From Sphingobacteruim zhuxiongii (GTDB lineage Bacteria; Bacteroidota; Bacteroidia; Sphingobacteriales; Sphingobacteriaceae): a stretch of 64,000 nt of DNA. The number at the start of each line of letters is the position of its first letter. Position 1 is the first letter of the stretch. Both the position numbers and the translations under genes were made by a program. Location of the stretch: contig NZ_CP045652.1 in the NCBI RefSeq assembly GCF_009557615.1, positions 3,038,001-3,102,000 on the forward strand. The letters are read 5' to 3'. The notes beneath the pieces are model-generated. The model worked only from the letters and a program-made list of their open reading frames with translations, searched no databases and had not been told where the DNA came from. Shown here piece after piece: positions 42,112-43,950 of the stretch.

Positions 42112-43950
42112 TTAACTAAGTCCTAAATCAAAGGTTTTTCTCAATTCTTCTAACATTGGGTTCTTAGCAACCATTGCTTGATATTTCTCTTGCGCGGTAT
42201 ATGGTTTGCGATCTTTGGTTTTCTCAACCATAACGACATGGAGATCTAAAGAGAAGTTGCGTAGCTCAACACGTAAATAGTTAAGGATATCTATTTTCCC
42301 TAACTTTAGCTGTTCCGATTGAACTGCGTTTTCTACTTCAACCTCGATCTTCACCCCATTTAAGGTTGGGGTACTTGCAGTCATGATGGTAAACAAAGTA
42401 ATTTTATTATCTGCTTTAAGTTTTTCTGCAAAGAAATTCCATTTAGATAAAAACACGTTCTGTGTTACCTCGAGGTATTCCGATCCCTCAACAAGCGCTG
42501 GTTCATCCGAATCGCCACCTTTCTTTTCATCGAATATAGTATTCAAATTAGGCAGAGAATTCGCAGTCTTAAAACTACCCCAAGCTTTAAAGGCAGGCTT
42601 ACTCGTTTCCGGAGCCGTAGGAGCCGATGAAGTACTTGCTGGTGTATTTGTATTGGAAGCTGCTGGATTTGCTTGTGGAGCATTAGAACTCGTTCCACCG
42701 GGATGAGTCGTATCCATTTGCTTGGCAACAGGATTTGTAAACTGCGCAACAGCCGGAGGAGTATTCGTCGTTTTATGCGGTTCTATTATCCCTGACTCAG
42801 GGAGTTTTTTTTTTAATTCAGCTTGCGCTGGTATCCCATTTTGAGCTAAGGCTATCGCACTCGCTATATGGCACATCTTTAGTAAGGCAAGCTCGACTTG
42901 CAAACGTTGATTCTTACTAGTTCGGTAATTCACCTCACATTGATTCGCTATGTTCAAGGCCGATAACAATAGTCCGCTAGAAAGCTGTTGTGACTGTTCT
43001 AGATAACGCTTCTTAACATTCTCGCTAACTTCCAACAGTTTCAATGTAGACGGATCTTTGCTCACTAAGAGATTGCGAACATGCCCTGAAAGGCCAGATA
43101 TAAAATGTCCTCCATCAAAACCTTTATTTAGTATGCTATCAAAGATAAGTAAAGCGTTTGCCGCATCTTGTTTTTGAATAGCATCCAATAGCTGAAAGTA
43201 ATAGTCATAATCTAATATGTTAAGATTATCAATTACCGCTTTGTAGGTTAATTGCTTATTCGAGAAACTGACGATTTGATCGAACATTGATAAGGCATCA
43301 CGAAGCCCCCCATCAGCTTTTTGTGCAATAACATGCAAACCATCAGCTTCAAAACTAATCCCCTCTTTATTCGCTATAGAAGCTAAATGACTAGCCATAT
43401 CTTCTACCTTAATTCTATTGAAATCAAAAATTTGACATCGCGAAAGTATAGTAGGTAGAATCTTATGCTTTTCTGTTGTTGCTAGAATAAATATTGCATA
43501 AGAAGGTGGTTCTTCTAAGGTCTTCAGAAATGCATTAAATGCTTGCTGAGAGAGCATATGAACCTCATCTATGATATAGATTTTATATTTACCAGTTTGC
43601 GGAGGAATACGAACCTGATCAATTAATGAACGGATATCATCGACAGAGTTATTGGACGCTGCATCAAGCTCATGAATACTAAAGGAATTACCGTTTTGAA
43701 AAGACTTACAGCTATCACATTCACCACAAGCTTCATTGGTTTCAGTGATATGCTCACAGTTTATTGTCTTTGCTAGGATACGTGCGCAGGTCGTTTTACC
43801 GACACCACGTGGTCCACAGAATAAGAATGCTTGCGCTAATTGATTATTGCGAATAGCATTTTTCAGTGTTCCAGTTATGTGTTGCTGACCGACAACCGAA
43901 TCAAAAGTAACCGGTCTGTATTTACGTGCAGAAACAATAAAATTATCCAT
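42112..43950 (-). CDS. dnaX: DNA polymerase III subunit gamma/tau
   Basis: A 612-residue clamp-loader ATPase. Domain I has Walker A CGPRGVGKTT (45-54), a four-cysteine zinc module (C65, C75, C78, C81), Walker B IYIIDEVHML (124-133) and sensor 1 around ATTEKHKILPTILSRCQ (157-173, SRC at 170-172). Domains II-III run to about 365. A low-complexity Pro/Ala/Thr/Asn linker (about 385-465) and a C-terminal tau-type domain follow. The coding strand has an A10 tract exactly at the domain III/linker junction (residues 379-382). A slip in either direction would stop within a few codons and leave a gamma-like protein of about 384-387 residues. Upstream of the ATG is TATCTTCG, a near -7 element. Confidence 0.96.
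   Translation of the reverse strand: MDNFIVSARKYRPVTFDSVVGQQHITGTLKNAIRNNQLAQAFLFCGPRGVGKTTCARILAKTINCEHITETNEACGECDSCKSFQNGNSFSIHELDAASNNSVDDIRSLIDQVRIPPQTGKYKIYIIDEVHMLSQQAFNAFLKTLEEPPSYAIFILATTEKHKILPTILSRCQIFDFNRIKVEDMASHLASIANKEGISFEADGLHVIAQKADGGLRDALSMFDQIVSFSNKQLTYKAVIDNLNILDYDYYFQLLDAIQKQDAANALLIFDSILNKGFDGGHFISGLSGHVRNLLVSKDPSTLKLLEVSENVKKRYLEQSQQLSSGLLLSALNIANQCEVNYRTSKNQRLQVELALLKMCHIASAIALAQNGIPAQAELKKKLPESGIIEPHKTTNTPPAVAQFTNPVAKQMDTTHPGGTSSNAPQANPAASNTNTPASTSSAPTAPETSKPAFKAWGSFKTANSLPNLNTIFDEKKGGDSDEPALVEGSEYLEVTQNVFLSKWNFFAEKLKADNKITLFTIMTASTPTLNGVKIEVEVENAVQSEQLKLGKIDILNYLRVELRNFSLDLHVVMVEKTKDRKPYTAQEKYQAMVAKNPMLEELRKTFDLGLS
42805..42814 (-). other. A10 slippage-prone tract inside dnaX
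   Basis: On the coding strand ten consecutive As encode part of LKKK (residues 379-382). If one A is added, the frame reads KKKTP and then TGA; if one is lost, KKNSLSQG and then TAA. Such tracts allow transcriptional or ribosomal slippage; whether it happens here is untested. Confidence 0.55.

Follow-up and report, generated by a model that had tools for sequence, protein, structure and literature searches.

Whether a single dnaX gene supplies one subunit of the DNA polymerase III clamp loader or two is the question raised by a locus of Sphingobacterium zhuxiongii, located on the minus strand at positions 42112-43950 of the window (the whole stretch of DNA analyzed here, 64,000 nucleotides of contig NZ_CP045652.1). 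As templated, this open reading frame (ORF) for subunit tau/gamma encodes a protein of 612 amino acids (67.6 kDa) that matches the NCBIfam model PRK14971 over residues 1-611 (E = 7.7e-253) and contains the Pfam domains DNA_pol3_delta2, DNAX_ATPase_lid and DNA_pol3_gamma3. The initial annotation had drawn attention to a run of ten As in the coding strand, and this A10 tract indeed occupies positions 42805-42814 (minus strand; gene nucleotides 1137-1146; T10 on the plus strand), in the context GAA TTA AAA AAA AAA CTC CCT GAG, where the codons TTA AAA AAA AAA specify LKKK at residues 379-382, as had been stated. Its placement ‘exactly’ at the end of domain III was slightly generous: the tract does lie just past that domain, but the Pfam match stops at residue 365 and the tract starts 14 residues later.

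A change in the number of As would alter the product drastically. One additional A is computed to yield 384 amino acids (42.6 kDa, C-terminus ..LKKKTP), closed by a TGA at 42797-42799 (minus strand), and one missing A to yield 387 amino acids (42.9 kDa, C-terminus ..LKKNSLSQG), closed by a TAA at 42786-42788 (minus strand), so that both lengths given in the initial annotation are reproduced; with two additional or two missing As, the computed products comprise 388 and 383 amino acids, respectively.

Among the homopolymer runs of 8 or more listed for the window, the tract ranks first in length, and no tandem repeats were found at it. The 4.32-Mb genome as a whole holds 16 A10 sites, both strands counted, and four of these, dnaX among them, fall within sense ORFs (ATG upstream of the tract, length 150 codons or more). 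The initial annotation had made its proposal depend on conservation among relatives, and the tract is kept: a run of A9 or longer is present in 92 of 93 genomes of the genus Sphingobacterium (the full set searched, this one included) and in 128 of 166 dnaX loci from other Bacteroidota. Within the genus, whose members are related to one another and whose counts are hence non-independent, the run is A10 in 76 genomes, A11 in 14, A9 in two and A7 in one (L116, where the broken tract lies in a truncated contig), and two members (L121 and L133) retain A10 in a different codon phase. No run of A9 or longer occurs in any of 1016 control windows (145 nt) elsewhere in the same genes. On this comparison, the tract is not a product of chance.

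One could nevertheless regard it as a contingency locus subject to replication slippage (phase variation), or as simple mutational noise in a lysine linker rich in A, and three genus genomes (L113, A9; L114, A9; L115, A11) are in fact frame-shifted at the tract, such that a change of one A reopens the tau frame. Homopolymer sequencing error may be the source of these three shifts; because the genomic sequence itself is shifted, annotation would end dnaX at gamma in each of them. Against such a locus or such noise stand the control windows and the fact that tract length mostly stays at 10 while the surrounding linker varies. Lysine codons upstream of the tract are AAA in 889 cases and AAG in 645, so drift would break the run. 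Another of the four ORF-borne A10 sites of the same genome (L204, C1:3723-3732), in a gene that we take from the look of its protein to be lpxK-like, is not kept, being found in only one of the 30 genus members compared (from 40 matches), namely this genome itself. We therefore consider contingency or noise very improbable. In a further genome (L117, G018) the A10 is intact and the tau frame is broken about 57 codons past it, continuing in another frame, through either a sequencing error or a real shift.

Beyond the genus, 166 distinct loci were compared, comprising 79 named loci and a further 28 and 59 from phylum genomes. The named loci are the best 80 of at least 594, less L037 (Sphingobacterium arenae), which is identical to the genus locus L017 over 200 nt; the phylum genomes derive from 146 matched genomes, of which two overlapped the genus set, 28 entered as loci, 60 were picked by hand (mostly one per genus, giving 59 loci because L260 could not be anchored) and 56 were left out. 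At the gamma/tau boundary, 128 of these loci carry 9 to 13 As and the remaining 38 carry 7 or fewer; none carries 8, making the length distribution bimodal, and production of gamma by slippage would thus not be universal in the phylum. Only one of 1162 upstream control windows from the non-genus genes contains A9 or longer. A+T-rich genes carry the tract more often, but 9 of 21 genes with at least 55% G+C have it too. On a FastTree tree (177 rows, with L260 scored as lacking the tract), a minimum of 19 transitions between having and lacking the tract are needed, as compared to a mean of 35.5 and a minimum of 30 in 500 shuffles. The first A occupies codon phase 0, 1 and 2 in 22, 46 and 29 of 97 non-genus loci, respectively, indicating that DNA rather than peptide is kept; a peptide-level reason for the three lysines was rejected on the same ground.

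Nearby stops beyond the tract likewise exceed the controls in both alternative frames. Among the genus genes with tau in frame (n = 89, without L113, L114, L115 and L117, which have no open tau frame as templated), the frame reached by one additional A closes within 20 nt in 88 (control 43%), as does the frame reached by one missing A, again in 88 (control 42%). The corresponding figures outside the genus are 96 of 97 (control 42%) and 80 of 97 (control 37%), and both stops lie within approximately 60 nt in 95 of 96 tau-in-frame loci (97 in the stop count and 96 in the locus count, as the frame rules differ). The initial annotation’s suggestion of a gamma-like short form, which it left open to a Thermus-type or an E. 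coli-type route, thus gains support from tract conservation and nearby stops; production of this form we infer. The upstream stem-loop of relatives and the quarter of tract-bearing relatives with gamma in the genomic frame, both described below, go beyond that annotation.

The same tract might alternatively be read by the ribosome. Any A10 contains the heptamer A_AAA_AAA, at which −1 ribosomal frameshifting of the E. coli type would generate gamma, terminating at the TGA 5 nt past the tract. The nearest and best-kept stop is that of the −1 ribosomal frame (it lies no more than 12 nt away in 87 of 89 genes of the genus and in 94 of the 97 from outside it), the window gene has a 6-bp downstream stem-loop, as E. 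coli-type sites do, and, in the available part of one survey, E. coli reporters of another gene are given frameshifting values of 10, 40 and 63% with growing A run (PMC3711429). Enrichment of the other frame’s stop, on the other hand, would be needless for a −1 shift, and the bimodal run lengths, at least 9 and never 8, fit a threshold set by RNA-DNA hybrid length better than a 7-nt ribosomal site. Rfam includes a dnaX frameshift family; a search of the locus up to E = 10 returned no match to it, and the two matches obtained (E = 5.4 and 7.6) were far under their gathering scores and were ignored.

Genomic frame provides a further line of evidence that bears on both readings. In 32 of the 128 tract-bearing loci outside the genus (the 3′ flank being short in three), gamma is encoded in the genomic frame and an open tau frame is reached by a shift, of one additional A in 31 cases and of one missing A in the other (L202). 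The frame required by these 31 is also the one reached by −1 ribosomal frameshifting, a point against the slippage reading, whereas L202 requires the opposite shift. On the gene tree, tau and gamma frames switch at least 16 times (33 gamma-frame rows, L113 included), and 500 shuffles give a mean of 29.7 and a minimum of 24 switches; frame states hence cluster, unlike random sequencing errors. Sequencing error was rejected on this basis as the source of the gamma-in-frame genes as a set; individual genomes such as L113-L115 are not covered by that rejection. Gene calling would report many Bacteroidota dnaX genes (e.g. L199, L201, L203 and L274) as short and gamma-only, with tau lying past the A run in another frame.

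The reading that we consider probable is that the A10 of dnaX is a programmed transcriptional slippage site, through which one gene would provide a long subunit as well as a short one. When RNA polymerase transcribes T10, its hybrid of approximately 9-10 bp would consist entirely of rA:dT and be free to realign, producing a mixture of dnaX mRNAs with ten As, more or fewer. Transcripts with ten As would be translated into tau (612 amino acids), and those with ten plus or minus three As into tau of 613 or 611; all others would run into a stop no more than about 20 nt on, yielding gamma-like products, 383-388 amino acids long, that retain domains I-III and lack the tau-only C-terminal part. Slippage at a 9-10 bp hybrid predicts kept runs of at least 9, the lack of any of 8, a codon phase free to vary, stops in both alternative frames and a genomic frame that switches. 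The occurrence of slippage, the agency of RNA polymerase rather than the ribosome, the product ratio and the role of gamma are what we infer from this pattern.

Stem-loops are predicted on both sides of the tract. The downstream one (TCCCTG-AGT-CAGGGA, 6 bp, positions 42789-42803, minus strand) begins 1 nt past the tract (RNAfold −8.1 kcal/mol) and recurs in 4-6 bp versions in L004, L005, L011, L117 and L119, and is absent from L006-L010. Across the genus, downstream stems of at least 5 bp are rarer than in controls (15% vs. 36%), a point against ribosomal frameshifting; a role for this element as a general stimulator was rejected for the genus and is possible for the clade of the window gene. 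Read on the plus (antisense) strand, positions 42789-42814 present this hairpin, which is confined to near relatives, followed by a G and the T run, an arrangement resembling an intrinsic terminator.

The upstream stem-loop (CAGC-GCAA-GCTG, 4 bp, positions 42819-42830, minus strand) ends 4 nt before the tract (RNAfold −5.8 kcal/mol) and, in the predicted folds, is a weak form of a stronger one in relatives, reaching 9 bp in L168 and at least 7 bp in L160. When the 34 nt upstream of the tract are folded, the last paired base lies 0-4 nt from it in 91 of 93 genus members, and perfect stems of at least 6 bp ending within 4 nt of the tract occur in 51 of 93, as compared to 9.3% of 11253 control positions. 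The position of such a hairpin also bears on ribosomal frameshifting, since, according to the accessible text of PMC6321510, an upstream hairpin adjoining the shift site attenuates −1 frameshifting. For many relatives, a stem-loop in the nascent RNA beside the hybrid would probably increase slippage; given the weakness of the upstream loop in the window gene, the tract itself would there do most of the work. Weighing the stops, run lengths, genomic frames and stem-loops together, we regard E. coli-type frameshifting as an improbable explanation of this locus. RNA polymerase and ribosome might also both slip at the same tract, poly-A being described as slippery for both in the available part of PMC3711429, and the window gene being structured on both sides of the tract; the ribosomal part is not required by any result, however, and we find this combination quite improbable.

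A separate matter, which leaves slippage at the tract unaffected, is whether the upstream stem-loops of the relatives have a role or merely reflect chance in related coding sequence. The excess of stems of at least 6 bp survives when the genus is thinned to dissimilar upstream sequences (7 of 22 vs. 9.1%, binomial p = 2.5e-3) or thinned at a 70% cut (10 of 28, p = 6e-5), and both-sided (compensatory) changes are seen in 10 of 32 stem pairs (33 cells), in five classes grouped by eye that cover 72 of the 93 genus rows (59 distinct). Consistent with chance, on the other hand, pairing exceeds all 1000 shuffles of the 3′ letters in one of the five classes and is at or under the shuffle maximum in the other four; folding relative to dinucleotide shuffles has a mean z of −1.0, with 23 of 93 members reaching 5%; one control window folds equally well (−7.23 vs. 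−7.25 kcal/mol) and a control position 298 nt upstream has a mean stem of 5.2 vs. 5.6 bp at the tract; and stems are under 5 bp in 35 of 93 members, the window gene included. We consider a chance origin rather doubtful, and the folds suggest that, in this genus, the upstream stem-loop is likely an auxiliary element rather than an invariable component of the system. As a phylum-wide element it was not borne out, dissimilar loci outside the genus having only a slight excess of stems of at least 6 bp (12 of 87 vs. 7.1%, p = 0.019).

A broader reading, to which we give roughly even chances, extends slippage to the whole of the Bacteroidota: slippage at 9-13 As would be the ancestral default of dnaX, leaving the genomic frame nearly neutral and free to alternate between tau and gamma; Sphingobacterium would tune the rate through a fast-evolving nascent-RNA stem-loop at the tract, a terminator-like element turned to the control of a protein ratio. 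The tau/gamma switch of an entire phylum would thereby become testable, including lineages with apparently gamma-only genomes, in which tau would escape annotation. This reading would also provide a large natural series of stem-loop and A-tract variants for the study of nascent-RNA-driven polymerase slippage, and would bear on the open question of gamma’s purpose.

Parts of this picture are already in print, namely slippage in Thermus dnaX and the two-ORF A10 type of dnaX gene; for a Bacteroidota-wide tract, the frame switching and the stem-loop, no report was found in the literature searched, in which subscription papers were mostly beyond reach. In Blochmannia, the dnaX frameshift in an A tract described in the available part of PMC3017870 is located elsewhere in the gene. 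The 2013 GeneTack survey, in its accessible portion, describes 17 two-ORF dnaX genes from 12 genera, nine of them with A10, with gamma in frame and tau produced by recoding, names Chloroherpeton and Chlorobium species, and suggests polymerase slippage (PMC3711429); some of the nine A10 species may be Bacteroidota. Its two-ORF organization, as there described, is that of the 32 gamma-in-frame relatives, whereas the window gene has tau in frame and so falls outside this type.

Stem-loop-assisted slippage is known from an IS630 element of Roseiflexus, where, according to the available text, a nascent RNA loop lies directly 5′ of a T5C5 slip site (PMC5009743). Many relatives studied here have a strong predicted stem-loop in the same place, but the site is A10 rather than T5C5, and the loop of the window gene has only 4 bp and lies 4 nt away. 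With the −1 programmed ribosomal frameshift of E. coli dnaX, the window gene shares the gene itself and the outcome, a short product ending soon after the site; it differs in having no AAAAAAG or A_AAA_AAG heptamer (A10 is followed by C, with A_AAA_AAA present within the run) and in a downstream stem-loop that recurs in near relatives rather than across the genus. Another parallel is Thermus thermophilus dnaX, for which the portions of the reports available describe transcriptional slippage at A9 and stops in either alternative frame (PMC5009743, PMC1088944). A mark of that type is an mRNA population with an extra or missing A and a gamma:tau ratio near 1:1. Like Thermus dnaX as there described, the window gene encodes tau in one ORF, has close stops in both other frames and carries an A homopolymer (of at least about nine) ahead of the tau-only part; it differs in phylum, in having A10 rather than A9, in the upstream stem-loop of many relatives, and in that slippage is here proposed from comparison. 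As far as the sequences can indicate, the evidence favors Thermus-type slippage, which fits better than −1 ribosomal frameshifting of the E. coli type.
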